DNA of 64,000 nucleotides from Haliotis asinina (Eukaryota; Mollusca; Gastropoda; Lepetellida; Haliotidae), in the NCBI RefSeq assembly GCF_037392515.1, contig NC_090283.1, positions 14,080,501 to 14,144,500 of the forward strand, in the 5' to 3' direction. Position numbers and translations under genes: made by a program. Position 1 is the first letter of the stretch. Every line of letters begins with the position of its first letter. Below, piece by piece: positions 4,581-60,900 of this stretch. The notes beneath the pieces were generated by a model. It was not told where the DNA came from and did no database searches. It saw only the letters and a list, made by a program, of their open reading frames with translations.

Positions 4581-7500
4581 AACACTAAAGGTAAGTTGTT
4601 GGAGGACTTTTGTTCTGACAATGATTTATGTATTTATAATGATGGTTCCAACACATATTTACACCCTTGTACAGGGACCTATTCTGCTCTCGACTTGTCA
4701 CTGACAAATTCTGAACTATTAAATGAATTTGAATGGTCAGTCCACGATGACCTGTGTGGAAGTGACCATTTTCCGACTATATTAAAAGCTGTAACTCCAT
4801 CTGATGTTCCTCCATCATCAAGGCGGAATTTTACAAAGGCTAACTGGACTTTATATGAAACACTGTGTGCTGAAAAACTTAAACCTGAACGTTTTATTGA
4901 CGTTCCCGATGCTATTAAATGCTTTTCTGATCAACTGAATTCCATAGCTGATGAGTGTATACCAAAGTCCTCTGTAGTTCCACACAAGAAAACCATGGTT
5001 CAACGATGAGTGCAAACAAGCTAGGAAGGCAAGGAAAAAAGCAGAACATTATTTCCGTTGCCATCCCATGGTGCATAATTTAAATAAATTCAAAATTTTC
5101 AATGCTAAAGCACGGCGTACAGAACAAACGCCAATCTTGGCAAAATTATGTGTCCAAAATAAATTCTCGGACACCCATCTCCAAGGTATGGAACATGGTC
5201 CAGAAAATTAAAGGTACAGGTACTAAATCCACTGTCCATCATCTCAAACATGGAGATCAATTATTTATTGATAAATCAGATATTGCTAATAAACTGGGCG
5301 AAACTCTCGCTAAACATTCTTCCTCCTCGAATTATACACCTAAATTTCAGCAATATCAAAAACAACAAGAAAAGAAAACTATTAATTTTAATTCTGATAA
5401 TGGAGAAGATTATAATGAAACGTTTTCTATTCATGAACTCCACACTACTGTTGATCAAACTCATGACACTGCTACAGGAGCTGATAACATACATTATCAA
5501 CTCCTGAAGCATTTACCAGAATCCTGTTTAGAGACGTTCTTATCAATATTTGATGGTATTTGGACATCCGGGAAATTTCCTTCTTCATGGCGTGATGCTA
5601 TAGTAGTACCAATACCTAAACCTGGACGTGATCATACGGATCCATCCAATTATTGTCCGATTTCATTAACTAGCTGTGTTTGCAAGACCATGGAACGCAT
5701 GATAAATAATCGACTTGTTTGGTACTTGGAAACAAATAACCTTATCACAGATATACGATGTGGTTTCCGTAAATGTGGTTTCCGAAGTACAGTCGATCAC
5801 TTAGTGCGTTTAGAATGATTTGTGAAAAACACGCTGATTAATAAACAACATGCTGTGTCTATCTTCTTTGATCTTGAGAAGGCATATGGCACAACCTGGA
5901 AGTATGGCATTCTGGGAGATCTACATGATTTCGATTTGCGTGGTCGTTTGCCTGAATTCATTGCTAAATTTTTAAATAACAGACAATTTCAAGTCCGCGT
6001 GGGTTCTACCCTGTCTGATCATTACAATCAGGATCAGGGTGTTCCACAAGGCAGTATTTTGTCAGTCACTCTTTTTAGTATAAAGATAAACAGTTTATCT
6101 AAAGGTTTAAACGATTCAATTGATGGATCGTTATTTGTGGATGATTTTAATATTTCTTGTCGTGGTAAAAATATGCATACCATAGAGCGGCAGTTGCAGT
6201 TGTGTTTAAACAAAATAAATAAATGGTGTCTTGAAAACGGCTTTAAATTGTCTAAATCGAAAACTAACTGCATACATTTTTGTCGTAAGTCCAAACCACA
6301 TAAAGACCCTGAACTATCTCTAGATGGCACTCCCATTAAAGTTGTCAAGGAAGCCAAGTTCTTGGGATTCATTTTTGACTCACACCTAACGTTTCTGCCT
6401 CATATTAAATCTCTGAAAACTAAATGCCTGAAAGCCCTTGATTTGATGAAAGTGGTATCAAATTCTAAATGTGGAGGTGATCAAGGTACCCTCCTCCATC
6501 TATATCGATCACTTGTCCGTTCTAAACTTGATTATGGATCCATCGTATATGGTGGAGCCTGCAACAGCAACTTAAAATTATTAGATTCTGTTCATCATCA
6601 AGGTCTAAGACTTTGCCTTGGGTCCTTTAGAACCTTTCCTGTTGACAGTCTATATGTTGAAGCTGATGAACTATCTCTTACACAACGCGGTATAAAATTA
6701 TCTTTACAATGTATAACAAAGCTATACTCTAACGAATCTAACCCCGCATATAACTACGAGGACTTGTACAACAAAAAGCCTTCTCTTGTTGCACCTCTCG
6801 GGCACAGAATTAAACCCTTTCTTTCTTCCGCCGGCATTGAGCTGGAAAACATAGCTCCTTCCCGACTTCTTTCTTCTCCTCCTTGGCAATTAGTTAGGCC
6901 ACAAGTCGACCTAACATTAACTGCATTTAAAAAATAAGAAACTAATGAATTACAATACAAACAAGAATATGATCAGTTGAAACATAAATATAGCAATTAT
7001 AAATCCTTATTTACAGATGGGTCAAAGGATGGTGGCGCAGTGGCTTGTGCCACTGTCATTGGATCAAGAACAGTATCTTCTAGATTACCAGACAATAGTT
7101 CTATTTTTACAGCAGAAGCTAACGCCATATTAACAGCTCTTAAATATATCCAAAGACATCCTAAACATAAACAGTACATAATCTATTCAGACTCTCTTTC
7201 TTGCCTTCAGGTGCATGTAAACATACACTTTTAATAGAAATTATTGAACTTTATAACTAACTTGCGACTGGCCAATACAACATCGTCTTTGTTGGTTACC
7301 CAGTCACGTAGGTATTTCTGGGAATGTGATGACTGATCTTGCTGCAAAAGCAGCACTCAACAAATCTGTGACACCACTTCCTATTCCATATTCAGATTAC
7401 AAAGCTTGCATTAGAACGTATATCCGTGATCTGATGCAGAAGAAGTGGGACACTCAAGTAGGTATCAATAAATTACTTGAAATAAAACCGTATATTGGTT

Positions 7501-11140: not shown

Positions 11141-11836
11141 TTAGTTTATTTCTTTGTCCAGGACGTTATTGATGAGTGATTTCTTGGTGTCGGACATGAG
11201 GATCTTCTCCCCACTGACTACCTTCATGTTTACTGTGTAGTGACGATCCCGACCGACAGTAAATATAGGGAGGAGATCCTCCTTGAACGTCACATCAACC
11301 CTCCCTAAAACAACGGACCTGTCTACGTCAATAAATCCTATTCTACCCCTCTTGAAATCCAACACAACGCCATAGTGGAGGGTGGACCGTGTGCCGGGTG
11401 TGTCAGACATTGTGTTTCTGTAACACTTAACCCACACCCCCGCCAGATACAACCTGGTACAGAGACTCCCCGGGTGCGTGTCACAGCTCACTACACTGAC
11501 ACACCAGGAGCGGCGCTGATCACAAACATGCCACATACTGTCCACCTGGCTCTCCTCCGCAACACCCACCTCTAGAACAGGCCACAACCACCCTCTTTCC
11601 ACCACACCCACACCGAAGTGGGCCTCCCAGTATCGTGTTGTGGGGAGGACAAGTGTGACAGTAGAGGGGGTTGGAGGAAGGGGGATGGGAGCGCAGCTAC
11701 ATGTGCCGCACAATCTCTGTAGTCTGCCACTCTGCGTGTGTTGTGTGTCGGGCCTCGAGTTGACCAGCTCACCGTTTGTATTAACATGGCACGAGCGTGT
11801 GTTGGCTCGACCAGCGTCCAGTTGCACGTTATGACC
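11141..11836 (-). CDS. Terminal exon with a SPRY/B30.2-like domain (partial gene)
   Basis: SPRY/B30.2 domains are protein-binding folds common at the C-terminus of TRIM ubiquitin ligases and related immune proteins. The exon opens after an acceptor TTTGCAG at about 11837-11843 (minus strand), in phase 1, and ends at TAA 11141-11143, giving about 231 codons. SPRY-like features in order are RYWEAHFGVGV, SWCVSVVS, LHYGVVLDFKRGRIGFIDVD and LLPIFTVGRDRHYTVNMKVV. The N-terminal third is rich in Pro, Cys and Thr and is unlike a domain I know. Upstream exons should lie above 11837 on the minus strand but I find none, perhaps because the transposon pile at 12-23 kb separates them. The family call is by pattern and moderately sure; the parent gene is unknown. 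Confidence 0.55.
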   Translation of the reverse strand, partial: GHNVQLDAGRANTRSCHVNTNGELVNSRPDTQHTQSGRLQRLCGTCSCAPIPLPPTPSTVTLVLPTTRYWEAHFGVGVVERGWLWPVLEVGVAEESQVDSMWHVCDQRRSWCVSVVSCDTHPGSLCTRLYLAGVWVKCYRNTMSDTPGTRSTLHYGVVLDFKRGRIGFIDVDRSVVLGRVDVTFKEDLLPIFTVGRDRHYTVNMKVVSGEKILMSDTKKSLINNVLDKEIN

Positions 11837-13147: not shown

Positions 13148-14450
13148 TGAGTGAGTGAGTTAATATTTAACGTCACATCGGCAATATCTCAGCCATATTG
13201 TGACGAGAACATTTAACAAAGAAAAGGATTATATGTATATTATACAATCTGTCGCCGAAGGACAGTAAAACAACTAGAATATCACAATTTGAATTAAAAC
13301 TAGCGTGGAAAGATAAAACTAATATCACTATTCGGACAATACAACATAAAATCAGGCTATAGATTGCCAACAACTGAAGGTAGATCACCATACTAGGGAC
13401 AATAGGGACTTACAGTACGTTTGCTACCTGCATGGACCCTAGTTGGATTTACATCATCCCCTCAGCTGTTAGCAATTTAGTCCCATCTAGCCAAATATTA
13501 AAAATACACATATACTACGATTAAAAACAGTGGAAGTTTCAACGTACAGGAAATGTGTAGGGACTTACGTACCCTCTCAGGAGGACAATAATTTTACGGT
13601 ACTTCAACCCCCTTTGAGGGTACAGCCACCAACAATTCAAGGTACTAATCTAAACTACCATGAATTAAAATGCAGCTATCTATAGAACATAATAATCAAA
13701 ATTCAGTAATGAAATCAATTTCTTTTAAAAATCCAAGAATTAAATGAGAACGTACGGTGTTAGAAAGGTCCTTAATTGTTTTTACATTGAAATATTTGTC
13801 CCTTATGATGGAGAATTCAACAGTCAAGCAGAATATGCTTGACCGTGGTTCTCTCATCACAAGGGATGCAAAACGGAGGATCCTCACCTTTCAATAGGTA
13901 TGAATGAGTATATCTAGTATGGCCAATACGACATCGTCTTAAAATAACCTCTTCAAATCTGGACTGACAACCCAAGTGGGTGTAACCAATATACGGTTTT
14001 ACTTCATGCAATTTATTTATACCTACTTGGGTGTCCCACTTCTTCTGCATCAGGTCACGGATGTAGGTTCTAATGCTTGCTTTGTAATCAGAGTATGGAA
14101 GAAGAAGTGGTGTCACAGATTTGTTGAGTGCTGCTTTTGCAGCAAGATCAGCCATCACATTCCCAGAAATACCTACGTGACTGGGTAACCAACAAAAGAC
14201 GATGTCGTATTGGCCAGTAGCAAGAGTATTATACAGTTCAATAATTTCAATTAGAAGTGGATGCTTACAAGAAATATTTTTCATAGCCTGAAGGCAAGAA
14301 AGAGAGTCGGAATATACTACATATTGTTTACGTTTAGGGTGTCTTTGAATATATTTAAGAGCTGTTAATATGGCATTAGCTTCTGCTGTAAAAATAGAAC
14401 TATTGTCTGGTAATCTAGAAGATATTGTTCTGGATCCAATGGCAGTAGCT
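13148..14450 (-). mobile_element. LINE copy D: 5'-truncated insertion inside the Gypsy remnant
   Basis: On the minus strand it starts at 14450 within RNase H and ends at 13148 in the (TCAC)n tail (GTGAGTGAGTGAG on the plus strand). An exact 13-bp target-site duplication flanks it. It contains the RNase H remainder, C-terminal zinc motif, 3' UTR and the SINE-like tail block. This is direct evidence that the family retrotransposes with its (TCAC)n end. Confidence 0.92.
13696..14450 (-). pseudogene. LINE D ORF2 fragment: RNase H and C-terminal zinc motif
   Basis: The fragment opens inside RNase H (with SSIFTAEANAILTALKYIQR and YSDSLSCLQ), continues as QYDIVFCWLPSHVGISGNVM and the tail of RNase H, and reaches FCIPCDERTTVKHILLDC. 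Loss of two bases near 13817-13830 then shifts frame; the last residues (ending KEIDFITEF) are read in another frame to the stop at 13696. It lacks endonuclease and RT, so it is a 5'-truncated dead copy. Confidence 0.85.
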
Positions 14451-18831: not shown

Positions 18832-21800
18832 CTTCATCCACTACTTTTTTTCGATGGAATTGTAGAGGACTTCGTAATAATTTTAATGATCTTCAGCTAT
18901 TAATACAAGATCTAAAATCATCAGCCTTTTGCTTACAGGAAACTTTCCTTAAAGCTACAGATAATTTTAACTTGAGATCATATACTTCTTACCATCACTT
19001 TTCCCCTCCAGGTTATAAAGCTACTGGAGGATCTTCTGTTATGGTGAGGCAGGGTGTTATTCACAGTCCTGTTCCTCATATACCCCTCTCCAGGCTGTCG
19101 TTGTACGCATAACCCTGAATATCGTTTTTACTCTTTGTTCTTTATATATTCCACCTTCGTTTTGTCTCCAACAGGTTGACCTTCAAGTATTATATGACCA
19201 GCTACCGAAGCCCTGTGTCATCCTGGGAGATTTAAATGGTCATAACCCTCTTTGGGGTAGTACTAACATCAATACAAACGGTAAAATCTGAGAGGAGTTT
19301 TTCTCAAACAATGATTTATGTATTTTTAATGATAGTTCTCACATTTATCTTCATCCTGGAACTGGCAGTTACTCTTGTCTGGACTTGTCAATAGTGGATT
19401 CCAATTTACTGGGTGAATTCGAGTGGTCGGTTCACGATGACCTGTGCGGAAGTGACCATTTCCCTACTGTTCTCACAGCTCTGTGTCCATCTGATGTTCC
19501 TCCATCATCCAGATGGAATTTCACCAAGGCTGACTGGAATTTGTATGCAACTCTTTGTACTAGTAAACCAACACCTGATGCTTTTACAGATGTTGCAAAT
19601 CCTATAGAATCTTTCTCTGCTGAACTTCTCAAAATAGCTGAAGATTGTATTACAAAGTCCTCTCCAAATTCTCACATACGTAAACCATGGTTTACGGCTG
19701 ATTGCAAACAAGCTAGGAAGGCACGGAAGAAGGCTGAACATTATTTCCGTCGCCATCCCATGGTCCATAACTTAAATAAATATAAAATACTAAATGCTAA
19801 AGCCCGGCGTATTTTTAAACAAAATAAACGCAAGTCTTGGCAAAGTTATGTGTCAAGGATAACTTCACGAACGCCAATGTCAAAGATTTGGAACATGATC
19901 CAGAAAATTAAAGGTAAGGGGACCAAATCAAGCATCCACCATCTAAAATCTGGAGATCAGTTGTTAACTGATTGATACGATATCGCAAATGAACTGGGTG
20001 AAACGCTTGCTAAACATTCTTCCTCGTCTAATTATGTTCAAAAATTTCAAAAATACCAAGAACAACAGGAGAAGAAACCCATCAATTTTCAATATTCTTT
20101 TTGACGGGGAAGATTATAACGAACTCTTTTCTATCCATGAGCTTTATAATGCTCTTGAACAAGCTAATAATACCACAACAGGAGCTGATGGTATACATTA
20201 TCAACTCCTGAAACACTTACCAGGATCATGTAAGAGACTCTGTTGAATATCTTTGATGAAATTTGGACGTCAGGTAAATTTCCTTCATCCTGGCGTGATG
20301 CCATAGTTGTTCCCATACCTAAACCTGGACGTGATCATACTGATCCATCTAATTATAGACCTATTTCACTGACTAGCTGCGTTTGCAAAACCATGGAACG
20401 CATGGTCAATAACAGATTGATATGGTACTTAGAATCAAACAACTTAATCACAGATATTCAATGTGGTTTTCGCGAAAAACGAAGTACCATTGACCATTTG
20501 GTTTGATTGGAATCATTCGTTAAGAATGCCATTGTATCCAAACAGCATGCAGTGTCAATCTGTTTCGATTTAGAAAAGGCTTATGACACTACATGGAAGC
20601 ACGGTATTTTAAAAGATATTCATGGCTTTGGATTGCGAGGCCATCTGCCTCAACTTATATCCGAATTTTTAGCTGACAGGCAATTTCAAGTCCGCGTGGC
20701 TTATACCTTGTCTGATTATTATGCTCAAGATCAGGGTGTCCCACAAGGCAGTATTTTGTCTGTCACTATATTTAGCATTAAAATCAACAGTTTAGCAAAG
20801 GTTTTAAATGATTCAATTGATGGATCACTTTTCGTGGATTATTTTAATATTTCTAACAATTGAAAGACAACTCCAGCTTTGTTTAAATAAGATTGATAAA
20901 TGGTGTATGGAAAATGGATTTAAATTTTCAAAATCCAAAACAAATTGCATCCACTTTTGCCGAAAGTATAAACCTCATAAAGACCCCGAACTATATCTAG
21001 ATAACACACCTATTACAGTTGTTAAAGAAGCAAAATTCTTGGGCATAATATTTGATGAACATTTAACATTTCGACCACACATTAAATATTTAAAAAATAA
21101 ATGCCTGAAGGCCCTTGATTTGCTGAAGGTTGTATCTAATACAAAGTGGGGTGCAGACTAGAAAACCCTCCTCCAACTATACCGAGCTCTTATACGATCC
21201 AAACTTGATTACGGCTCCGTTGTGTATGGCGGAGCCTGCAAAAGCAGCCTGAAACTTTTAGATTCTATTCACGGTCTAAGACTTTGTCTTGGATCCTTTC
21301 GAACATCTCCCGTTGACAGCCTTTATGTTGAAGCCGATGAGCCTTCTTTGAACCATCGGCGTATTAAGCTCTCTTTGCAGTGTTTTACAAAGCTGTTTTC
21401 TAATGAATCCAACCCTGCATACAACTGCGTTTTTAATCCTCTCTTCGAGGATTTGTGTGGGAAAAAACTTCTCTTATTCCGCCTCTTGGAATACGAATTA
21501 AACCTTTCCTTTCTGCTGCTGGCATTAAGCTATAAAATTTAGCTCCTTCCCGTCTTCTTTCGTCTCCTCCTTGGCAATTGGTTAGGCCAGAGTTTGATCT
21601 CACCCTGACAATGTTTAAGAAATCCGAAACAAATGAATTACAATACAAACAAGGATATAATCAGTTAAAACGTAAATGGTAAATCCTTGTAAACAGACGG
21701 GTCCAAGGACGGTGGCGCTGTGGCCTGTGCCACTGTCATTGGTTCTACAACAATATCGTCTAGAATACCGGGCAATGCCTCTATTTTCACAGCTGAAGCT

Positions 21801-23029: not shown

Positions 23030-24510
23030 CGCAAAATTAAACAGGCAGCTGTTATGTATATGTGCTAAGGATGAACAAATGAAAAAAATTTTTTTCGAAA
23101 ACTCAAAATTTAAACTCGCTCGCCCATTGGCACGTCCATGGGCGAACAGTGGCCAATGGGTAGGCCCATGGGCGAAAGTGTTTAATTTCATCCAGAATAA
23201 ATGTTTTGGAGGTTGTAAATGAATGAAAAAATGTTAATAAGTATCATGACACAAATTTCAGCTTGTTGTGACTTGACTCTGCTAACTGACAGCGATTTTA
23301 AACAATCTCGCCCATGGGTGAAAAACATATTGGCCCATGGACGAGAATAATTAATTTCATTGAAACTACATGTTTTTTTCCAGGCTTTGCAGCTTTTCAA
23401 TGAATGAACTTGTATTTATTATTGTCTTGACACGAAATTAAGTTTAGTTTGACTTAATTCGGCTAATTAAGAGTGATTTTTCAAAACGCTTCGCCCATGG
23501 GCGAAAACCATTTGGCCCATGGGTGAGAATATTTACTTTTACTCAAAATACACCTTTTCCCATGTTTTGGAGGTTGTGAATGGATGAAAGTATGTTCGTA
23601 AGTATCATGTCAAAAAATTCAACTCATTTTCAATTAATTCCGTTAATTTAGAGCTATTTAACAAAATCTCACCCATGGGCGAAAAACATTTTGGCCCATG
23701 GGCAAGAATATTTCCTTTTACCCCAAACACATCTTTTCCAATTTTTGGAGGATGTAAATGAATGAAAGTACATTTATGAGTATCAGGACAGAAATTTCAA
23801 CTCATTTTGACTTAATTCCTCTAAATGAGAACAATTTTGAAAACTCTCGCCCATGGGAGAAAGACATTTTGGCCCATGGGCGAGAATATTTGCCTTCACT
23901 CAAAATACATCTTTTCCTGTGGCTTGGGGGTGTAAATGAATTAGGATATATTTATGAGTATCATGGCACAAAATCCAACTCATTATGACTTAATTCTGCT
24001 AATTGAGACCGATTTTCAAAAACATCTCGCCCATGGGCGAAAAACATTGGGCCCATGAGCGAGAATATTTCCTTTTCACTTCAAATACATCTTTTCTAAT
24101 GTTTTGGAGGATGTAAATGAATGAAAGTGCCATTATGAGTATCATGACACAAAATTCAACTCATTTTGACTTAATTTTGCGAGTTCAGGAACATTTTTAA
24201 AAATATGCCAGAATAATCACTTTTACTCAAAATACATCTTTCCCTGTGTTTTGGAGGTTGTAAATGAATGAGGATATATTTGTAAGTATCATGGCACAAA
24301 ATTCAACTCATTTTGACTTAATTCTGCTAATTTGTAACAAGTACAAAAATCTGGACTTCCACATAAATTTTCATAGTTTTTTTTTATTGTCTTGGGGGTT
24401 GTAAATTTATAAATGAAAGTGTGTTTATAAGTATCACGACAAAAAAAATGAAATCATTCCGGTCTTAATTAGACTAATCTCGCTCGTGGACGAAAATATT
24501 TTCGTTTGCT
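23030..24510. repeat. ~180-bp tandem satellite, 7-8 units, with paired palindromes
   Basis: Successive palindrome blocks start near 23118, 23310, 23491, 23670, 23848 and 24027, a period of about 180 bp. A further unit near 24208 has lost most of the block. Each unit has CTCGCCCATGGGCGAAAAAC, a short spacer, then GGCCCATGGGCGAGAATA, followed by an AT-rich part with TTTGGAGGTTGTAAATGAATG and AGTATCATGACACAAAATTC. The two arms form a 14-base inverted repeat around a 13-14-base loop, and each arm is itself palindromic (GCCCATGGGC). The last unit decays towards 24510. Confidence 0.85.
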
Positions 24511-28756: not shown

Positions 28757-29012
28757 TTCCTTTTCACAGCAAACTCCTGATGATTAGGATTTACTTACAG
28801 ATGACAAATTTGATACTGCGATCCTCTCTTATGTTGTGCAATGTTGCATCGCCTGTTACAGAAAAGTTATATCACAATGACACATTGATAAGATATAAAG
28901 CAATTGCAACAAGATACCTCGTCTATGTATTGTGGTTAAACCACCTTTACATAATGTAATTCATATCAGGGGGTGCCAGGGTGATATGGACATGCCACAA
29001 GTTGATCCATGT

Positions 29013-29500: not shown

Positions 29501-30104
29501 TTAAGGAACGACTTGTTGAAGATTAATGAGGGTACCTGTTGCTTGCGAACAGAGAAAGCATGTCACGCCTTACTGGTAGTACGAAAATACATCAGAGTGC
29601 ACATACCTTGCAAGGTGATACCATGAGGAATTCCCTCACCAGGGTTGCATGCTCCGACTATGAGCTGAAAGTAATTGATATTGATTCGTTAATACACGGA
29701 AACTCCCTATATGTGACAATATTCACTTGCTATTCATCCATGTCATGTAGTTTAAAATCAGAGAATGCATATCCATGCATTATTGAAAGGGTTAGCCGGT
29801 TTATCCAGGTCCATGCCTGGGTGAGTTTGAAAGTGTTCACGTAAATACCACCATGTTACAAGAACATGCACACAAGTTGAAAGGTGGAACAACACCCCCC
29901 CCCCCCCCCCACTCCCTACACCCCCCACCCCCCCTCAATTCACGGAAACGTCCCTTGCGACAAGAAGTGTATACTGAAGACCTGTTATCCAGAATCCTCG
30001 TAGGAAGATTGGACTTACTTTTGTGACAATGCTATATACTTCCTCTGATGTCAGTTGTTCAGGTTTCTGTAATCTCGCCATTCTGCTGTCTAGTCCTTTG
30101 AGTT
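29501..30104 (-). CDS. CARD-RING gene, three C-terminal exons
   Basis: Exons are 30104-30019 ([20 protein letters not shown], then EEVYSIVTK; donor GTAAGT), 29664-29607 ([19 protein letters not shown]; acceptor TTACTTTCAG, donor GTATGT) and 29535-29501 ([10 protein letters not shown] then TAA; acceptor AAGCAACAG). Each is open only in the frame that the preceding phase demands, which supports the chain, but no known domain is present. The final exon is just 35 nt and should be checked against RNA. Confidence 0.5.
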
Positions 30105-30467
30105 CTGTTCACAGACAAAATTATTCATATTGCCTTTGATAGTATGGTGTTTACAAAAGAATACCATAATATGACGCAAGATTAAGTCGATAGAAAACAC
30201 GTTTATATTTCCATATATTTACGATTTAATCACATGGGCTATTATATCCTGTAAAGTTTGAACGTTAGTTGTGTTATTTGCTATGTAGCTTTGCCATTCT
30301 GCATCATCGTGTGGCTATGTACCTGGGATGATGCAACATATCATCTGTTGAAGCTGTTGCCACCTCTCTTCATGCACCTGAAACAACAACACGTGCATTA
30401 AACAGATCACTTTTGGGGCATAAGATGTGTGTGTCCACATGCATTCGTCTATTCATTCACCAGACCT

Positions 30468-30510
<43 letters not shown>

Positions 30511-33500
30511 AATCACCCCACACTCCCACCCACCCTATTTGCATACACACACGTAAGCACACACGCACGCACGCACAAACATACATAAACATACACACAC
30601 ATCTATTCAAACGTGCGTATTTTGGAGACTACATTTACTGTGTGATGACATCATACCATGATAGTTTCTCGTTCATTCCTTATCATCGTCAGTAAATCTG
30701 AAATCGAATGCAGACCAGAACAATTTACAAAAGCATTTGGTAAATGATTTTCTCTCTTAACAACTTATATTAAAAATGAAATCAGTTGAAAGTATTATAA
30801 TGGTTTGCATGCTTGCAACATTTATATAGTTGATTTACAAGAATTCTGATTTCTGTATAAACTATTTATATGAATGAATGATAAAAACAAATTTTCAGTT
30901 CTATTAGTCAAACGATTAACTCGTCCTCATGAGTATTATGTAAATATAATAGAATACAGACTAGACCAATGTAAAACGCAATCCATAACTGATTGTCACT
31001 TTGCAAGTAATATTCAGCATAATTATTCAATCGGTTGAAAGTATTACATTTCTTTGCATATGTGGAGCAGTAATATAGCTGATTAACAAGCAGTATGTTT
31101 TAAGTAAGACTTTTCAAATGGGATGAATCTTCTAAGGAATTGTTCAGTTAGTCAAGTGAGACACTGGTCCATGCTTCGTGAGAGTAAATCGTTTTGATTA
31201 TGTATTTACCTTGTAAGGTAGGTTGAGAATCTGGAATATGATCCATGTTTAGACTTGTGACGAGAGTACCAAATGTGGCAATAAGTTCCTCAAGAGCTTT
31301 CTGTCCTTGAAAGGAAAGGATGATTCTCGTGTCTTGTGTGTCATCTTCTGGAAGCATCCACTTCAGATTTTCATCACATTTCGTCTGCAGTACATCTGTT
31401 AGAGTAATGAGCTCTTCTCGTCTTGTAGATTCAAGTGTTCTCTGGGTGTAGTCTATCGCTGATACTATTGACGTATGAACGTTATGTAAAGAGTCAAGTT
31501 TCTCTTCAACCGTTTCGTTTGGGGCTTGGAGACTCATTTGAATTTCCCGCATGAGTTGTCTCTGTCGATGAAGAAACTTTACAGCGACAGCTTTACAAAC
31601 TTTAGTTACAGCTTGCTCCAGTCTTTTTTGTGTCGCTACCAACTCAGTTTGGTGACCCCTGACAGTTTTCACACCTTTAGCGACATATCGCAGTTTATCT
31701 TCTTGTTTTTTCACTTGCTCCTCCAGCTGACTCTTCGCTACGTCATATGCCTGATCCAGGTCTTCCTTCTCGTGCTTCTTGTGGGCCCCATGCACACATA
31801 TAAGACAGACTGCCTTCTTACACGTGTGGTCATACAGCTGTAGTTTGTTGTCAGGGTGATCGTTACAATAAGGTTCTTTCAGCCACGGCCTCATAAGGAT
31901 ATTCTCTGCCTGGTTGATCGCCGTTACGCTGTGATTTCGATTCCGTTTCGGCGTGTCGTGGTGTTTATGGCACTCAGAGCAGAGCTTGTCATCACATTGG
32001 TGACAGTACACCACAGCCTTTGCATCATGATCTTCATCGATGTAGCTGCATTTCATCTCACCATCAGCGTTGACTTTATAGGCAGCTTCATTGCGTCTGA
32101 CATGATCTATTGTTGTCTGCTCCACCGTGAACTGACGGCCACAGGAAGGACAGTGTATGCACTTCTCTTCCGTCTGTGTAGCTTGGTGATCAAGGCATGG
32201 CTTGCAGGCAGAATGAAGGCATGGCAGAAGGCGAAGCTGTCTCTCATCACAACAGGACACAGCCGAAAACAGGCACATTGTCTCAGGGGAACCTAGAACC
32301 ATACAAATGACACGAACCGTAGTTAGACACATATTCATTTTATTGTCTGGCAGTCAGCTGTTCGTGGTGGTGTTTGGTTTCCTGCCAGACTACACATATA
32401 CATGACCGATTATTGATCTGTCTAATGTACCTGCATGTTGGACTTGCTCTGTATTGTCCACCCTGTCTGGTGACCTTGGAACACCCACTAGAGCATCATA
32501 TGCCTCCTGTTCTTCCCTCAGTGCCTGAAAAGACAGATATCGCTGCATCTCATTTGTCCTTGTTTTATTCTGTTATGCATGTACTGGTTTCTTTTTATTT
32601 CAGACTTTGTCCAGATTACGACCTAAAGTGCATTAAATTATCATCTACCCACCTTCTCAACATTGTCAGATTTTGCACGAGACTGCTGCAACTCACGATT
32701 TAACTTTGACAATGCTGTCTTCACTGAAACGACAAAAGTGATAGGATTCAACCAAATAGCAGTTTGTCACCTTCGAGATATTTATGGTCACTTTTATGCA
32801 AAAAGCTTCCTTTCTTTTCAGAAATATTACAACCTGCAATATTGCGCATATCACCATCAAAACTGACAATATGAACTATATTATCGAAATGGCGAATACA
32901 TGTTAAGCATTACTTACTACATTATTCACTATATTTTATTGACACAATAAATAAATGATGACATTATAATACAGATGATATCACGAGGATCACACTCGCA
33001 TATCAGTGTCCAATTTTGTAAAGGATAGTCATTATCAACATAGGAACAATTAGGCTTGACATCGACATCGATTTATATTTTTGACAAATCTCTATTCACA
33101 AAAAAACAAAACCAGTTTGACTGTCACATGCTTCTATTGTTGCCTTCACATGCAATACACTCAGGACAATAGTTATCACATTTGTTTGTTAGTAATATAT
33201 ATATTGTAATACATAAGCATCAACTTACGTGTTTCAATTTCCTCGTTCTTCTTTACTATCTCTGACATGTGTTCATCACTTTCATTCTTCATTCTTTCCG
33301 CCAGTTCAGCATGATCAACGTTGTTTTGTTCAACTTGTTGTTCAAGTCCTTCTATCGCCTGAAAACAGACGTGAGAGCCCAGAAAACAAATAAATACCGA
33401 CTTCTTGTGAACAAACTACCGGATATTTTATCCGGCTGCAAGTCTTATATGACATTCAAAGTTATTGACAGAGTATGTTTCGTGTTTCATTATCTTTGGG

Positions 33501-35333
33501 AAAGACTAAAGGTGTGTAATCACTTTTCAACTATTCACAAGACAGCGAGCATTTAACTTACAGATTTCAAGTCAGCTATCTCTCCCTCTTTTTCAGCAAG
33601 TTCATTTGTGTACATAGCTTCCAGTTTGTCCTTCTGAACAAAGACAAGATTTGTGTTACCTGAAAAATATAAGAGATTGTGTCACGTGATTTATCAAATG
33701 AAACGTAGCCGGGAATATTCTGGGGCATTTTGCATTTGGTTACATGTGTGTTTCGGTTTTAGTGTATCGGTTATCATATGACTGAAAACGGAAATTTGTG
33801 AAATGTGAAAGGCATTCATGATTGCCATAGATATCGAAGAGACATGTTAGAGACGATTGACAATTGTAGTACCCCATTTTGACAATCATCTTATGATCAC
33901 AAGGGCGGTTTACATGAGAACACTTGGCCGACAAAAAGTCAAGACCTGAATCTTATTGGGTGTGTTTGGAACATTTCAGTACGTTGTATGCTGTTGCCAA
34001 CTGAAACAGACAGCCTGAAAGAGAGAAACAGGTTCTGCCTGGGAGAAGACATCTTCAATCCGTTATCCCGTTATCGCAACTTTTGGAAGCAAAAACTTTA
34101 GTCAAGAACTGGAATACTGCTTGTTGCAGAAATTGTGGAAGTTGTTCGAGACCTGAGTCATTTGTAATCTTTTTGTGAAGCGTCGCTAAAATAACCAGCG
34201 ACAGCCATCATTTTAGGACTACTGATGCGCTCTCCCTCCTTCCTCGACAATTGCAGGAAGAAATGAAGGGCGGATGGTAGACATTATAGTCTTGGAGAGT
34301 GAAGCACCTGTATAGGCACATCAGGGAGCGGATGGTAGACATTACGGTCACGCAGTGTGAAGAAACAGTCCAGGCACATCAAGGGGCTACTGGTGGACAT
34401 TATAGTCATGCAGTGTGAAGCACCTTGTACATGCACATCTGGGAGCGGATGGGCGACGTTATAGTCATGCGGGGTGAAGTAGGAGTACAGGCACAACAAG
34501 GAGCTGCTGGTAGACATTATAGTCATGCAGTGTGAAGCACGAGTACAGGCACATCAGGGAGCTGATGGCAGACATTATAGAGTGAAGCGCTAGTTCAAAG
34601 CACATCAGCAATGTCAGTCAATAAATATGAGGAATAACCTGTCCCAGGGAACATGCTGATCAACAGTGGAGTGGTAATCGTTGGCGGTTCGTTGGTCACA
34701 AGCAGATTGTTGCATTTAGGATTTCACCAGCATTCGTATAGAAGGCAGATGATTCGACAAAAGACGATGGGAGACGCTGGTGGGTCACGCTGAAGGTGCC
34801 CAAATGCTCAAATATATGGACGTACCAGCCAAGTGTCGCCAAAACGTTTGTATTCAAGACAGAGCGGTATCCATTAGTACAGCTCTAAATTTGCGGACTG
34901 ACATACCTAAATCATCCATTGTATGCATATCACATGATACATATTTGACCGTTTCCACGTGTTACTTCACTTGATATGCTCACAATTCCGCTTCCTTACT
35001 GATTAGATGATTAGCAATACTTGTACGTTCATCGAGAAACCCGTGGAAGGTTTGCCTACCTGCTTCAGTTGAGGTATTATCAAGTCTTTCCTTGATGAAA
35101 TGCTGTGTGGTGTCGAGGACAGCACAGAGTGTCTTGTAACCTTCTACTCCCTTCTTTTTCAGCGTTTCCAACACCAACTGACATTTCTCTGTCCCAGCTT
35201 GTCGACACCTATCATAGTCTGCCTGTGTGAAGATACATTCCTGATACAAGGCATCCAGCACAGGGTCAACCTGCAGGTTCTCCTTCAGATACAGATGATT
35301 CTTCTGCAGGGTGAGGACCTGGGGAAGGTCCAT
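29501..35333 (-). CDS. CARD-coiled coil-RING-B-box (TRIM-like) protein, nine-exon model, 642 aa
   Basis: Minus-strand model, coding parts: 35333-35060, 33659-33562, 33358-33229, 32723-32653, 32524-32431, 32292-31210, 30104-30019, 29664-29607 and 29535-29501. All eight introns are GT-AG, all junction phases agree, and the total is 1,929 nt, or 642 codons plus TAA at 29501-29503. Domains: CARD (about 8-85), coiled coil (about 93-210), RING (229-273), B-box 1 (304-343), B-box 2 (365-396), coiled coil (about 398-560) and a short tail without NHL, filamin or SPRY. CARDs pair with other CARDs to build signalling platforms; RING/B-box proteins are usually cytosolic ubiquitin ligases. The role in innate immune or cell-death signalling is an inference. 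The start ATG has ACA at -3 to -1 and G at +4. The last two exons are the least certain. Confidence 0.75.
29887..29936. repeat. C-rich homopolymer tract
   Basis: A run of about 16 C at 29894-29910, then mixed C-rich sequence. It lies in a predicted intron between exons 7 and 8 of the CARD-RING model and is prone to sequencing error. Confidence 0.9.
30471..30507. repeat. (CA)n microsatellite in the intron
   Basis: About 18 CA units, followed by CA-rich sequence with GCACGCACGCAC near 30565. Confidence 0.95.
31210..32292 (-). CDS. CARD-RING gene, large exon with RING, two B-boxes and coiled coil
   Basis: This is the strongest coding signal of the locus, 1,083 nt. RING: C229, C236/C237, then [10 protein letters not shown] (C247, H249, C252, C255) and CPSC (C270, C273). 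The first pair is C-x6-C instead of the usual C-x2-C, so zinc binding by the first site is uncertain. B-box 1: [20 protein letters not shown] and [10 protein letters not shown]-box 2: [33 protein letters not shown]. The coiled coil has [20 protein letters not shown] and similar stretches. The open frame extends upstream of the acceptor at 32293 and downstream past the donor at 31209 to a stop at 31148; those extensions are intronic in my model. Confidence 0.88.
32431..33659 (-). CDS. CARD-RING gene, four small coiled-coil exons
   Basis: Exons 33659-33562, 33358-33229, 32723-32653 and 32524-32431 are rich in Glu, Lys, Gln and Leu with heptad spacing: [60 protein letters not shown] and [12 protein letters not shown]. 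Donors are GTAAGT, GTAAGT, GTGGGT and GTACAT; acceptors end TTTTTCAG, TTTTCAG, GTTTCAG and TTTTCAG. Phases run 1-0, 0-1, 1-0 and 0-1, matching both neighbours. They would form the rod between the CARD and the RING, probably for dimerisation. Confidence 0.75.
34277..34612. repeat. 58-59-bp tandem repeat, six units, inside an intron
   Basis: Units start near 34277, 34334, 34393, 34452, 34510 and 34568, each beginning (G)TAGACATTATAGTCATGCAG or a variant and containing GGCACATCAGGGAGC. The run sits in the intron between the CARD exon and the first coiled-coil exon. The last unit is partly deleted. Confidence 0.85.
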
Positions 35334-35361
35334 TGTGTTATCCAAGGTGGTCTGTATATAT
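35060..35361 (-). CDS. CARD-RING gene, exon with start codon and CARD
   Basis: The exon is bounded by acceptor TTGTTACAG (35362 upward) and donor GTAGGC (35059 downward), with the ATG at 35331-35333 ([20 protein letters not shown]). The domain reads as a six-helix CARD: hydrophobic [20 protein letters not shown], then [20 protein letters not shown] and [16 protein letters not shown]. The acceptor just upstream of the ATG implies at least one further 5' non-coding exon above 35361, which I cannot identify. It ends in phase 1 after 91 codons. Confidence 0.78.
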
Positions 35362-35993: not shown

Positions 35994-37468
35994 TACTGAG
36001 TCAAAAAAGAAACTTCACAAACTGTAATTGAAAAAAATAATGAATATTTTTTTCTCTGATGCAACATCTATGTATCCGAAATGGGATCCCTATGTTTCGA
36101 CTGAAGAAAACCGTTGGCAAAACCCACTCAAACCCATCCATTCGTCGTGCAAATGATGTTAGTGCCAAATCCGGTTTTGCACGAGCAGTCGATCACGTGA
36201 CCTTTACATCGAAGTTTCCTTCATGTGCATGTGTTTGCACTGGCCTCAAGAATTTTTTAAAAATCACTTTTAAACCACAGTTCTAACGGTACTACTTTAA
36301 ATGCCACGAGTGTCAAATGCGCAACGTGAACGTGTCGTTGGCATGGTCCAAGCGGGAAGGTCAGTTAATGACGTCGCAAGAGCAATGGTATGCAGCCGTC
36401 GCACTGTGTATGACTTGCGAGGTCGTCTACAACAAACTGGCAGCACTTCTGGTCTCCCAAGGTCTGGTCGTCCACGTCTGACGTCACGAGCAGAAGACCG
36501 TTAAATCTTCCTACGGCACCTACATGACAGATTTCTGCCGGCTACACGAACCAGGGCTGAGATGTTTAGAGGCCGACTGTCCTCACAGACCATTCGAAAT
36601 CGGTTGCGGGCTACTAATCTCCATTCTCGACGTCCATATCGTGGACCAATACTGACGCCGTTTCATCAACGTCAACGTCTGCTGTGAGCCCAACGTCACC
36701 TCCAGGTTTACCCTCAGATTCGCAGACTTCAGGCATAGAGTCTGAAGACGACGTCGTGAACGGTATGCCCAATGTTGTGTACAGGAAGTCGAGAGATTAG
36801 GGTCAGAATTTGCATGGTGTCTGGTGCTTTCTGCGGGAACAACCGTTCCCAAGTTCTGGTCATCCATGGAAATCTCACAGCTGCTGCTTACTACGACCAG
36901 GTGCTCACCCCTGAACTCGTTCCTCTCATGGCGGCTCATGGCCCAGGTCTACTGTTCCAGCATGATAATACTCGGCCGCATACCGCGATGTTGACACGAA
37001 ATTTCCCTCAAAACGGTGGAAACAACGTCATGGACTGGCCATCGAGGTCCCCTGACCTTAATCCAATAGAGTACGTTTGGGATGCACTTGGGAGAAGGCT
37101 TCGTGGTCTTAGGAACCAACCTCAGAATTTGCAGGAACTTGGCGCTGCCTTGCAAGAGCAATGGCGCAGAATCCCCAACCACGTGTTCACAAGCATCAGG
37201 CAGTCGATGAGAAGACGGTGTTTGGCAGTGGTGAATGCGCGGAGCGGCCATACGCATTTCGATTTTTTATTCTTGTGACTTGACATTCTAGACAACCCAT
37301 GTTTTGGAACGGCGGTGTAGCCTAATGGAACTGATTGTAGCACTGTCAGTGTATCGAGTACATCACACAGATCTCAGCAATGAAATAACAATTTAACCAT
37401 CTTACCATCTCTTGTTCTTTTATAGTGCCCTGAAGAAAGAATGTGAAGTATCTTTTTGGCTCAATACG
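35994..37468 (+). mobile_element. Tc1/mariner element, dead copy with both inverted repeats
   Basis: The left terminal repeat at 35994-36022 reads TACTGAGTCAAAAAAGAAAC then TTCACA. The right end at 37441-37467 (TGTGAAGTATCTTTTTGGCT then CAATA) is its diverged reverse complement. TA dinucleotides lie at both ends. The element is about 1.47 kb, the usual size for Tc1-like elements, with a broken transposase inside. Confidence 0.85.
36301..37278 (+). pseudogene. Tc1-like transposase (DD34E), with stops and a missing first Asp region
   Basis: A transposase that cuts and reinserts the element at TA sites. N-terminal helix-turn-helix: MPRVSNAQRERVVGMVQAGR, then RSVNDVARAMVCSRRTVYDL and the linker GLPRSGRPRLTS. 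The C-terminal catalytic part has LLFQHDNTRPHTA (second Asp) and DWPSRSPDLNPIEYVWDALG (third residue Glu), with 34 residues between them. All parts share one frame, interrupted by stops at about 36502, 36685, 36738 and 36759. The segment that should hold the first catalytic Asp (TDES-type motif) is missing around 36765-36800. Nonfunctional. Confidence 0.88.
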
Positions 37469-54905: not shown

Positions 54906-57900
54906 GAATAGGTACATGACGTAGTGGATCAGTCTACAGTACACACTAATATACATGACGTAGTGGATCAGTCTACAGTACACACTTACATACTTGACGT
55001 AGTGGATCAGTCTACAGTACACACTAACATACATGACGTAGTGGATCAGTCTACAGTACACACTTACACACATGACGTAGTGGATCAGTCTACAGTACAC
55101 ACTTACATACATGACGTAGTGGGTCAGTCTACAGTACACACTTACATACATGACGTAGTGGGTCAGTCTACAGTACACACTTACATACTTGACGTAGTGG
55201 GTCAGTCTACAGTACACACTTACATACTTGACGTAGTGGGATAGTCTACAGTACAAACTTACATACATGACGTAGTGGATCAGTCTACTGTACACACTTA
55301 CATACATGATGTAGTGGATCAGTCTACAGTACACATACATACATGACGTAGTGGGATAGTCTACAGTACAAACTTACATACATGACGTTGTGGATCAGTT
55401 TACTGTACACATTTACATACATGATGTAGTGGATCTGTCTACAGTACACATACATACATGACGTAGTGGATCAGTCTACAGTACACACTTACATACATGA
55501 CGTAGTGGATCAGTCTACAGTACACACTTACATACTTGACGTAGTGGGTCAGTCTACAGTACACACTTACATACATGACGTAGTGGATCAGTTTACTGTA
55601 CACACATACATGACGTGGTGGGTCAGTCTACAGTACACACTTACATACATGACGTAGTGGGTCAGTCTACAGTACACACTTACATACATGACGTAGTGGA
55701 TCAGTTTACTGTACACACATACATGACGTGGTGGGTCAGTCTAGAGTACACACTTACATGACGTAGTGGGTCAGTCTACAGTACACACTTACATACATGA
55801 CGTAGTGGATCAGTGCACAGTACACACTTGCACACATGACGTTGTGGATCAGTTTACTGTACACACTTACATACATGACGTGGTGGGTCAGTCTACAGTA
55901 CACACTTACATACATGACGTACTGAATTAGTCTACTGGACACACTTACATACTTGACGTAGTGGATCAGTCTACAGTACACACTTACATACATGACGGAG
56001 TGGGATAGTCTACAGTACACACTTACACACATGACGTAGTGGATCAGTCTACAGTACATACTTACATACATGACGTAGTGGGTCAGTCTACAGTACACAC
56101 TTACATACATGACGTAGTGGATCAGTCTACAGTACACACTTACATACTTGACGTAGTGGGATAGTCTACAGTACACACTTACATACATGACGTAGTGGGT
56201 CAGTCTACAGTACACACTTACATACATGACGTAGTGGGTCAGTCTACAGTACACACTTACATACTTGACGTAGTGGGTCAGTCTACAGTACACACTTACA
56301 TACATGACGTAGTGGATCAGTCTACAGTGCACACTTACATACATGACGTAGTGGATCAGTCTACAGTACACACTTACATACATGACGTAGTGGATCAGTC
56401 TACAGTACACACTTACATACATGACGTAGTGGATCAGTCTACAGTACACACTTACATACTTGACGTAGTGGGATAGTCTACAGTACACACTTACATACAT
56501 GACGTAGTGGGTCAGTCTACAGTACAAACTTACATACATGACGTAGTGGGTCAGTCTACAGTACACACTTACATACATCACGTAGTGGATCAGTCTACAG
56601 TACACACTTACATACATGACGTAGTGGGTCAGTCTACAGTACATACTTACATACATGACGTAGTGGGTCAGTCTACAGTACACACATACATACATGACGT
56701 AGTGGGTCAGTCTACAGTAGAAACTTACATACTTGACGTAGTGGGTCAGTCTACAGTACATACTTACATACATGACGTAGTGGGTCAGTCTACAGTACAT
56801 ACTTACATACTTGACGTAGTGGATCAGTCTACAGTACAAACTTACATACATGACGTAGTGGGTCAGTCTACAGTACATACTTACATACATGACGTAGTGG
56901 GTCAGTCTACAGTACACACTTACATACTTGACGTAGTGGGTCAGTCTACAGTACACACTTACATACATGACGTAGTGGGATAGTCTACAGTACACTTACA
57001 TACATGACGTAGTGGGTCAGTCTACAGTACAAACTTACATACTTGACGTAGTGGGTCAGTCTACAGTACACACTTACATACATGACGTAGTGGGTCAATC
57101 TACAGTACATACTTACATACTTGACATAGTGGATCAGTCTACAGTACAAACTTACATACATGACGTAGTGGGTCAGTCTACAGTACATACTTACATACAT
57201 GACGTAGTGGGTCAGTCTACAGTACACACTTACATACTTGACGTAGTGGGTCAGTCTACAGTACACACTTACATACATGACGTAGTGGGATAGTCTACAG
57301 TACACTTACATACATGACGTAGTGGGTCAGTCTACAGTACAAACTTACATACATGACGTAGTGGATCAGTCTACTGTACACACTTACATACATGATGTAG
57401 TGGATCAGTCTACAGTACACATATATACATGACGTAGTGGGATAGTCTACAGTACAAACTTACATACATGACGTTGTGGATCAGTTTACTGTACACATTT
57501 ACATACATGATGTAGTGGATCAGTCTACAGTACACACTTACATACATGACGGAGTGGATCAGTCTACATTACATACTTACATACATGACGTAGTGGATCA
57601 GTCTACAGTACACACTTACATACATGACGTAGTGGATCAGTTTACTGTACACACTTACATACATGATGTAGTGGATCAGTCTACAGTACACACTTACATA
57701 CATGACGTAGTGGATCAGTTTACTGTACACACTTACATACATGATGTAGTGGATCAGTCTACAGTACACACTTACATACATGACGTAGTGGATCAGTTTA
57801 CTGTACATACTTACATACATGACGTAGTGGATCAGTTTACTGTACACACATACATACTTGACGTAGTGGGTCAGTCTACAGTACACACTTACATACATGA

Positions 57901-60900
57901 CGTAGTGGGTCAGTCTACAGTACACACTTACATACTTGACGTAGTGGGTCAGTCTACAGTACACACTTACATACTTGACGTAGTGGGATAGTCTACAGTA
58001 CACACTTACATACTTGACGTAGTGGGTCAGTCTACAGTACATACTTACATACATGACGTAGTGGGTCAGTCTACAGTACACACATACATACATGACGTAG
58101 TGGGTCAGTCTACAGTACAAACTAACATACTTGACGTAGTGGATCAGTCTACTGTACACACTTACATACATGATGTACTGGATCAGTCTACAGTACACAC
58201 TTACATACATGACGTAGTGGGTCAGTCTACAGTACACACTTACATACATGACGTAGTGGGTCAGTCTACAGTACACACTTACATACTTGACGTAGTGGGT
58301 CAGTCTACAGTACACACTTACATACTTGACGTAGTGGGATAGTCTACAGTACAAACTTACATACATGACGTAGTGGATCAGTCTACTGTACACACTTACA
58401 TACATGATGTAGTGGATCAGTCTACAGTACACATACATACATGACGTAGTGGGATAGTCTACAGTACAAACTTACATACATGACGTTGTGGATCAGTTTA
58501 CTGTACACATTTACATACATGATGTAGTGGATCTGTCTACAGTACACATACATACATGACGTAGTGGATCAGTCTACAGTACACACTTACATACATGACG
58601 TAGTGGATCAGTCTACAGTACACACTTACATACTTGACGTAGTGGGTCAGTCTACAGTACACACTTACATACATGACGTAGTGGATCAGTTTACTGTACA
58701 CACATACATGACGTGGTGGGTCAGTCTACAGTACACACTTACATACATGACGTAGTGGGTCAGTCTACAGTACACACTTACATACATGACGTAGTGGATC
58801 AGTTTACTGTACACACATACATGACGTGGTGGGTCAGTCTAGAGTACACACTTACATGACGTAGTGGGTCAGTCTACTGTACACACTTACATACATGACG
58901 TAGTGGATCAGTGCACAGTACACACTTGCACACATGACGTTGTGGATCAGTTTACTGTACACACTTACATACATGACGTGGTGGGTCAGTCTACAGTACA
59001 CACTTACATACATGACGTACTGAATTAGTCTACTGGACACACTTACATACTTGACGTAGTGGATCAGTCTACAGTACACACTTACATACATGACGGAGTG
59101 GGATAGTCTACAGTACACACTTACATACATGACGTAGTGGGTCAGTCTACAGTACAAACTTACATACATGACGTAGTGGGTCAGTCTACAGTACACACTT
59201 ACATACATCACGTAGTGGATCAGTCTACAGTACACACTTACATACATGACGTAGTGGATCAGTCTACAGTACACACTTACATACTTGACGTAGTGGGTCA
59301 GTCTACAGTACACACTTACATACATGACGTAGTGGGTCAGTCTACAGTACATACTTACATACATGACGTAGTGGGTCAGTCTACAGTACACACATACATA
59401 CATGACGTAGTGGGTCAGTCTACAGTACAAACTTACATACTTGACGTAGTGGGTCAGTCTACAGTACATACTTACATACATGACGTAGTGGGTCAGTCTA
59501 CAGTACATACTTACATACTTGACGTAGTGGATCAGTCTACAGTACAAACTTACATACATGACGTAGTGGGTCAGTCTACAGTACATACTTACATACATGA
59601 CGTAGTGGGTCAGTCTACAGTACACACTTACATACTTGACGTAGTGGGTCAGTCTACAGTACACACTTACATACATGACGTAGTGGGATAGTCTACAGTA
59701 CACTTACATACATGACGTAGTGGGTCAGTCTACAGTACAAACTTACATACTTGACGTAGTGGGTCAGTCTACAGTACACACTTACATACATGACGTAGTG
59801 GGTCAGTCTACAGTACATACTTACATACTTGACGTAGTGGATCAGTCTACAGTACAAACTTACATACATGACGTAGTGGGTCAGTCTACAGTACATACTT
59901 ACATACATGACGTAGTGGGTCAGTCTACAGTACACACTTACATACTTGACGTAGTGGGTCAGTCTACAGTACACACTTACATACATGACGTAGTGGGATA
60001 GTCTACAGTACACTTACATACATGACGTAGTGGGTCAGTCTACAGTACAAACTTACATACATGACGTAGTGGATCAGTCTACTGTACACACTTACATACA
60101 TGATGTAGTGGATCAGTCTACAGTACACATATATACATGACGTAGTGGGATAGTCTACAGTACAAACTTACATACATGACGTTGTGGATCAGTTTACTGT
60201 ACACATTTACATACATGATGTAGTGGATCAGTCTACAGTACACACTTACATACATGACGGAGTGGATCAGTCTACATTACATACTTACATACATGACGTA
60301 GTGGATCAGTCTACAGTACACACTTACATACATGACGTAGTGGATCAGTTTACTGTACACACTTACATACATGATGTAGTGGATCAGTCTACAGTACACA
60401 CTTACATACATGACGTAGTGGATCAGTTTACTGTACACACTTACATACATGATGTAGTGGATCAGTCTACAGTACACACTTACATACATGACGTAGTGGA
60501 TCAGTTTACTGTACATACTTACATACATGACGTAGTGGATCAGTTTACTGTACACACATACATACTTGACGTAGTGGGTCAGTCTACAGTACACACTTAG
60601 ATACATGACGTAGTGGGTCAGTCTACAGTACACACTTACATACTTGACGTAGTGGGTCAGTCTACAGTACACACTTACATACTTGACGTAGTGGGTCAGT
60701 CTACAGTACACACTTACATACTTGACGTAGTGGGTCAGTCTACAGTACACACTTACATACTTGACGTAGTGGGTCAGTCTACAGTACACACTTACATACT
60801 TGACGTAGTGGGTCAGTCTACAGTACACACTTACATACATGACGTAGTGGGTCAGTCTACAGTACACACATACATACATGACGTAGTGGGTCAGTCTACA

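Follow-up and report, generated by a model that had tools for sequence, protein, structure and literature searches.

Pyrin/TRIM20 (MEFV) is an inflammasome sensor that signals by way of its PYD, with ASC as adaptor (excerpt of PMC8654936), and its excerpted descriptions give an N-terminal death-fold domain, a long linker, a B-box, a coiled coil and a C-terminal B30.2 domain (PMC4455283, PMC8654936). It lacks a RING, and the PYD stands in its place (excerpt of PMC4455283). In an excerpted survey covering TRIM proteins from vertebrates, fly, worm and Ciona, PYRIN is listed as PAAD-B2-CC-PRY-SPRY and the B1-B2-SPRY subgroup is found to have no invertebrate members (PMC2533329). ASC and the PYD are reported in craniates only, and NLR, caspase-1-like and GSDME genes are reported to co-occur in molluscs (excerpt of PMC11508797). 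A further excerpt mentions SPRY coupled to Death, Pyrin or CARD domains and TRADD-N fused to TRIM; the TRIM fusion there uses TRADD-N, and a CARD-RBCC-B30.2 layout is not among what that excerpt describes (PMC8195603).

The abalone protein analyzed here has a layout close to that of human pyrin. Unlike pyrin, which has a PYD, no RING and no B-box 1 and signals via ASC, it begins with a CARD, has a long helix ahead of a RING-like domain and carries both B-boxes. The statement in the initial annotation that no vertebrate TRIM is known to have an N-terminal CARD overlooks pyrin, where a sister death-fold domain, the PYD, occupies that place (excerpt of PMC4455283). We liken the two proteins by layout, and common origin is not implied. 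MID1/MID2 and other RING-B1-B2-CC-B30.2 TRIMs are also alike in having a RING-like domain, both B-boxes, a helix and B30.2, and differ from the abalone protein in RING spacing. MID proteins begin at the RING and carry FN3/COS parts, none of which were found in Pfam scans of the abalone proteins. By profile, the RING-Bbox region is closest to TIF1-beta/TRIM28 (1.8e-13) and PML (6.9e-12), followed by MID1 (6.2e-7), but the TIF1-beta alignment starts only after the first zinc pair; TIF1-beta/TRIM28 and PML have no CARD and have other C-termini. cIAP1/2 (BIR-CARD-RING) likewise combine CARD and RING in one chain, and differ in having BIR repeats and neither B-box nor B30.2. No abalone CARD-TRIM, and no CARD on a RING-like/B-box/B30.2 body, was found described in the open PubMed Central literature, outside which most subscription papers lie. 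The parts and the principle are already known; a CARD on such a body in a multi-copy abalone family seems undescribed.

The window is a 64-kb stretch of the H. asinina genome (C4:14080501-14144500 of a 1.14-Gb assembly). With respect to the source strand, our model runs on the minus strand from 35333 to 11141 and has 12 exons, 11 GT-AG introns with agreeing phases and 912 aa. Without E7 and E8 it is identical, letter for letter, to the 880-aa protein P0001 (named "E3 ubiquitin-protein ligase Midline-1-like [Haliotis asinina]"), which was the top protein hit of our first model. P0001 may itself be an automatic prediction. The features are as follows:

35060-35333, minus strand: E1, start codon and CARD, residues 1-91 (Pfam CARD over cut-off)
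33562-33659, minus strand: E2, where coiled coil 1 starts (GT-AG splice sites, agreeing phase, same sequence as P0001)
33229-33358, minus strand: E3, coiled coil 1 (P0001 comparison; single helix 101-204 in the predicted structure)
32653-32723, minus strand: E4, coiled coil 1 (P0001 comparison)
32431-32524, minus strand: E5, last part of coiled coil 1, then linker (P0001 comparison)
31210-32292, minus strand: E6, RING-like domain, B-box 1, B-box 2 and coiled coil 2 (profile matches; zf-B_box over cut-off)
32141-32275, minus strand: RING-like domain, residues C229-C273 (coordinates by codon arithmetic from E6)
31931-32050, minus strand: B-box 1, residues C304-H343 (PF22586 below cut-off; ligand columns)
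31772-31867, minus strand: B-box 2, residues C365-H396 (PF00643; ligand columns)
31364-31768, minus strand: putative coiled coil 2, about residues 398-532 (predicted helices, mostly low confidence)
30657-30697, minus strand: E7, probable cassette exon, skipped in P0001 (matching stretch in P0003, P0016, P0007 and others)
30323-30377, minus strand: E8, probable cassette exon, skipped with E7 in P0001 (alignment A1, P0001 comparison)
30019-30104, minus strand: E9 (identical to P0001)
29607-29664, minus strand: E10 (identical to P0001)
28799-28852, minus strand: E11, overlooked earlier (identical to P0001)
11141-11835, minus strand: E12, B30.2/SPRY and stop codon, overlooked earlier
29501-29535, minus strand: terminal exon of the initial annotation, absent from P0001 (which joins E10 to E11)

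By tblastn, residues 1-650 of P0001 fall on exons of the window between 35333 and 28797, whereas its residues 651-880 align at 100% with 11833-11144. The initial annotation had chained nine minus-strand exons into one 642-codon frame, corresponding to E1-E6, E9, E10 and a 35-nt tail (1929 nt, by arithmetic). The chain and its agreeing phases hold; E7, E8, E11 and E12 were missed, and the tail exon (29535-29501) is ruled out because P0001 splices E10 to E11 (28852-28799) and continues to E12 (11835-11141). E7 and E8 together are 96 nt (32 codons), in frame, and are probably a cassette because a matching stretch is present in the majority of the remaining full-length sequences of alignment A1 (which comprises 21 of the 28 proteins described below; P0002, P0018 and P0024-P0028 were left out). 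The E11-E12 intron spans 17 kb and contains retroelement pieces. Within the 64-kb window, tblastn of five family proteins (E<=1e-3) matched the exons of this gene only, and no additional family copies were found. An acceptor-like site just before 35361, seen by eye, suggests an upstream 5' non-coding exon.

The earlier assignment of residues 1-91 to a CARD was borne out: PF00619 matches residues 8-78 of the 674-aa chain with 30.2 bits against a cut-off of 23.9, and the CARD exon alone gives 34.6 bits. In the full-length predicted structure (mean pLDDT 50.2) this region is a helical bundle (blocks 11-80, pLDDT 80-88), as in the CARD superfamily. Folded alone without an alignment, the exon reached a mean pLDDT of 57, and a fold search with that model gave 7 matches up to an E of 10, of which none had E<=0.001. 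In a profile comparison with the PDB, the nearest solved relatives of the CARD were the adaptors RAIDD (8.4e-4), ASC (3.2e-3) and BCL10, ahead of caspase-9, and ICEBERG was among the weak matches (E 0.18). Where coiled coils were proposed on either side of the zinc domains, the model predicts helical stretches; those following the B-boxes are H398-511, mostly at pLDDT <60, and H515-532. The RING-Bbox portion of the full model is of low confidence.

The proposal of a RING, a B-box 1 and a B-box 2 fared unevenly. B-box 2 matches PF00643 over the cut-off (residues 361-398) and has the zinc pattern seen in TRIM proteins, with eight ligand columns invariant in 21/21 aligned proteins, and B-box 1 falls below the cut-off (PF22586, residues 312-344, E 9.6e-4). 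The RING is atypical, with the ligand pattern C-x7-C-x9-C-x-H-x2-C-x2-C-x14-C-x2-C, and no Pfam RING family matches the 674-aa chain at E<=1; the Pfam RING scores shown are all below the cut-off, the best (4.7e-4) being for a piece of a paralogue. All eight ligand places have a candidate residue: C237, C247, H249, C252, C255, C270 and C273 are invariant in 21/21 proteins and C229 is kept in 20/21. The third column after C229, where the second Cys is usually found, holds Ser in 20/21 and Leu in 1/21, and the last pair is C-x2-C in some members and C-x1-C in many others. Ligases usually carry a linchpin Arg or Lys right after the last RING Cys; here this residue is Gly in 20/21 and Asp in 1/21. 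Canonical C3HC4 spacing was found in none of the 27 Haliotis proteins (some of them without the region or with a broken one) and in three of the four other proteins (P0028 and Mytilus P0030 and P0031, not P0026). Among all 31, the family pattern occurs in 22 (21 Haliotis and P0026), the canonical one in 3 and neither in 6. In place of the N-terminal C3HC4 RING with C-x2-C pairs that defines a TRIM, a CARD and a long helix precede the RING-like domain. A distant CARD-TRIM at C17:1.05 Mb in the same genome, whose RBCC is ~27% identical, also has C-x7-C, so the RING change is old. Because the ligand spacing is non-canonical and the Pfam RING scores are below the cut-off, ligase activity is not to be assumed; that spacing led us to reject a plain E3 ligase as the main reading. 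A structural or weakly active role is likelier for the RING-like part than that of main output.

A protein search recovered 28 proteins, 26 from Haliotis (H. asinina, H. rubra, H. rufescens and H. cracherodii) and 2 others. Precomputed domains include a CARD in 17/28 and PF27241 in P0004 and P0014. The domain order that the initial annotation proposed to seek elsewhere recurs: CARD with B-box is present in 14/28 and in four Haliotis species. A profile search recovered 20 proteins (18 Haliotis and 2 Mytilus TRIM56 without CARD), and querying with just the CARD region yielded 17 hits among 77 candidates, all Haliotis and all of this CARD-TRIM family. The protein searches scored the 7997 (sequence) or 7993 (profile) candidates sharing most words; they depend on short words in common and on restricted lengths, and distant relatives may therefore be missed. 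The family tree (23 of 31 proteins, midpoint root; P0002, P0024, P0025 and P0027-P0031 left out) has three main branches, all with CARD. Each main branch holds at least two species, which suggests that the family predates the divergence of these species and that further duplications followed within individual species. The source names (Midline-1-like, myosin-14-like, early endosome antigen 1-like) miss the fusion, and the precomputed Pfam domains show both CARD and B-box.

Genome-wide match counts, which may include haplotype copies twice, were at least 115 for the RBCC exon (113 of 336 candidates scored) and at least 20 for the CARD exon. We kept 110 of the 115 RBCC matches, dropping by hand five pieces of split or broken copies; 13 of the 110 are at >=40% identity. 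For these 13 close exons, one of the 20 matches of this CARD lies upstream on the same strand within 15 kb in 11 and within 31 kb in 12. It lies downstream within 15 kb in one case (by position, the CARD belonging to the next gene) and never on the opposite strand. Of the 97 more distant RBCC exons, 2 have this CARD upstream within 15 kb. With the Pfam CARD list (150 places plus the window's own, added by hand), the control positions gave 0/110 RBCC exons with a CARD downstream and 0/110 with one on the opposite strand. Damage is seen in several copies: stops interrupt three CARDs at C4:13.0-13.8 Mb and also their RBCC exons, and the neighboring gene has a split CARD. The earlier claim that a CARD is joined to a TRIM-like body stands on the sequence, on P0001 and on relatives in four Haliotis species. 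Judged from sequence, the fusion in one gene is real, and the CARD, long helix, RING-like domain, B-box 1, B-box 2, helix and B30.2 read as parts of one gene of a multi-copy Haliotis family.

E12 encodes a B30.2 domain at the C-terminus, as in the B30.2 class of TRIM proteins. Its best fold matches are MID1 and MID2, and the fold search does not single out pyrin: the Ash2L SPRY (12.9) scores higher and a xylosidase (11.7) equally high. Among close paralogues, the rate of change of B30.2 is roughly double that of CARD and RBCC. In seven close proteins (H. rufescens and H. cracherodii) the mean difference was 0.084 for CARD, 0.084 for RBCC and 0.186 for B30.2; per column, B30.2 differed by 0.191 vs 0.084, and 0/20000 permutations gave as large a value. 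B30.2 is not the most variable stretch of the protein: in the same seven proteins mean identity is 0.78 for residues 584-650 and 0.81 for B30.2, and in 10 deeper proteins identity was 0.61 for residues 584-650, 0.67 for coiled coil 1 and 0.74 for B30.2. The fast change of B30.2 fits a sensor, without proving one. Variable B30.2 sites concentrate in predicted loops (0/139 circular shifts as large, with 14 and with 7 sequences); loops are more variable than strands in most proteins, so this test is weak.

The B30.2 exon has at least 152 genome matches (150 of 362 candidates scored), and some of these are two halves of a single broken exon. Position counts, which used 120 of the 152 in listed order, placed a B30.2 within 8 kb of the 97 distant RBCC exons downstream on the same strand in 30 cases, upstream in 3 and on the other strand in 0. 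We compared eight RING-TRIM genes, selected for having a B30.2 nearby on the downstream side and paired with it by position alone, with nine C4 CARD-TRIMs (including 13.522, where no CARD was found, 14.152, with a split CARD, and 15.596, with its CARD 30 kb away). Two of the RING-TRIMs, C17:1.819 and C4:39.851, differ in neither part and hence are not independent. All eight RING-TRIMs have a canonical C-x2-C RING, which is absent in three CARD-TRIM loci checked likewise. Between the two groups (72 pairs), RBCC identity is 24% (21-27) and B30.2 identity 62% (45-83), compared with 66% and 65% within CARD-TRIMs (36 pairs) and 81% and 82% within RING-TRIMs (28 pairs). The CARD-TRIM at C4:30.659 Mb, which by matching letters is the gene of P0017, has a B30.2 68-83% identical to those of RING-TRIMs and 59-64% to those of the window's cluster, and an RBCC 21-24% identical to RING-TRIMs and 52-60% to the cluster. 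The most economical interpretation is capture of the B30.2 exon across CARD-TRIM and RING-TRIM genes. This reading is drawn from the unequal divergence of RBCC and B30.2 and not from tree shape. Tree-shape tests neither support nor reject it: constraining the 10 CARD-TRIMs to one group was compatible with the B30.2 data (p-AU 0.391, not rejected); on the same B30.2 tree without the C17 gene, placing 8 CARD-TRIMs together gave p-AU 0.421 and the C4:30.659 Mb gene with RING-TRIMs 0.417; and on the RBCC tree the latter placement gave 0.248. The linking stretch of P0017 (E7-E11) had no match at E<0.05 in the eight RING-TRIM loci (best 0.052), and matched its own locus, L042, at 1.5e-11.

The B30.2 domain was overlooked in the initial annotation, and its presence shifts the reading from a ligase with a CARD to a receptor with a CARD. 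The most likely job, which we propose tentatively and with nearly even confidence, is that of a cytosolic pyrin-like receptor, probably serving in immune sensing, in which B30.2 would sense, CARDs would cluster and recruit a CARD caspase, and the RING-like domain would more likely be structural or weakly active. Coiled coils and B-boxes would form dimers and lattices, and B30.2 would bind a foreign or altered-self ligand. Clustering would then gather the CARDs and nucleate CARD-bearing partners, most likely a CARD caspase, and the outcome could be cell death or inflammatory signaling without an ASC-like adaptor.

The view taken in the initial annotation was a working ubiquitin ligase, in which B30.2 would pick the target, the RING-like domain would transfer ubiquitin and the CARD would recruit the protein to CARD signaling complexes. 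The CARD-TRIM fusion on which it depends stands, and the near-invariant RING ligands, the weak Pfam RING matches and the TIF1-beta and PML profile matches speak for it. The ligase part is weakened by the RING spacing (Ser or Leu at the second-Cys column, C-x7-C, many C-x1-C endings), by Gly or Asp at the linchpin place and by RING scores below the cut-off, and we regard this view as rather unlikely. Another view is a negative regulator, namely a decoy resembling CARD-only proteins that would cap or sequester CARD filaments while the TRIM body serves turnover. In its favor, the family is multi-copy, and in some members the CARD is split, interrupted by a stop or absent. ICEBERG, one of the weak PDB matches, is a CARD decoy. 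The twofold faster change of B30.2 suits a sensor better, however, and the CARD is present in all three main branches of the tree, which makes a decoy improbable. Automatic-annotation fusions do occur, and the 17-kb intron with its retroelement pieces might suggest that a CARD gene was joined to an adjacent TRIM gene. Such an artefact is highly implausible given that the CARD-coiled coil-Bbox order is common to four species, that residues spanning the E1/E2 junction align between relatives and that CARDs lie upstream of 11 of the 13 close RBCC exons, with one downstream and none opposite.

Returning to the pyrin-like receptor, a more far-reaching version, which we consider unlikely, is that direct CARD inflammasome receptors of abalone arose independently of pyrin and that one fast-evolving pool of B30.2 exons moves between odd-RING CARD-TRIMs (death-type assembly) and canonical-RING TRIMs (ubiquitinating), coupling one ligand to either output. 

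A mollusc CARD version of pyrin would be a convergent, adaptor-free design with a recognisable, fast-changing sensor domain. The abalone CARD-TRIM would offer a direct route to what invertebrate death-type signaling detects, and a B30.2 exon common to ordinary TRIMs makes the exchange between sensor and output testable.

The tandem repeats and mobile-element pieces found in the window are listed here by position.

439-1761, minus strand, retroelement piece
5819-6934, plus strand, retroelement piece
13820-14449, minus strand, retroelement piece within the intron of 17 kb that separates E11 from E12
19292-19972, plus strand, retroelement piece inside the same intron
23200-24180, tandem array with units of ~178 bp
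34270-34580, tandem array with 58/117-bp units, within the first coding intron of the CARD-TRIM gene
36760-37275, plus strand, DDE_3 transposase piece (E 2e-8), a short way upstream of the CARD exon
54913-62643, minisatellite of ~200 copies of a 39-bp unit

The retroelement pieces at these four places comprise reverse transcriptase, RNase H and endonuclease, and the transposase piece is presumably Tc1/mariner-like. In the ~178-bp array, a palindrome-like motif with CCCATGGG was seen by eye to recur. Long open frames run on both strands of the minisatellite; since 39 bp corresponds to 13 codons, these frames are no evidence of genes.

At the neighbouring relative L033 (C4:14153001-14160000), the CARD exon lies in two displaced pieces. 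The H. asinina family protein P0003 matches this locus, and its precomputed domains do not include a CARD.

Elsewhere in the H. asinina assembly, near-identical TRIM genes are present on both C17 (1.8-2.6 Mb) and C4 (39.5-40.1 Mb), and the canonical-RING genes at C17:1.819 and C4:39.851 are identical in both parts compared (the RING/B-box/coiled-coil body and B30.2). Given this near-identity, C17 may represent part of C4 in a second, unplaced haplotype copy.

With the proviso that haplotype copies may enter twice, and that some B30.2 matches are halves of broken exons, the B30.2 exon of the window has at least 152 matches in this one abalone genome, and a CARD exceeds the Pfam cut-off in at least 150 places; L001 and L018 are examples of such loci.
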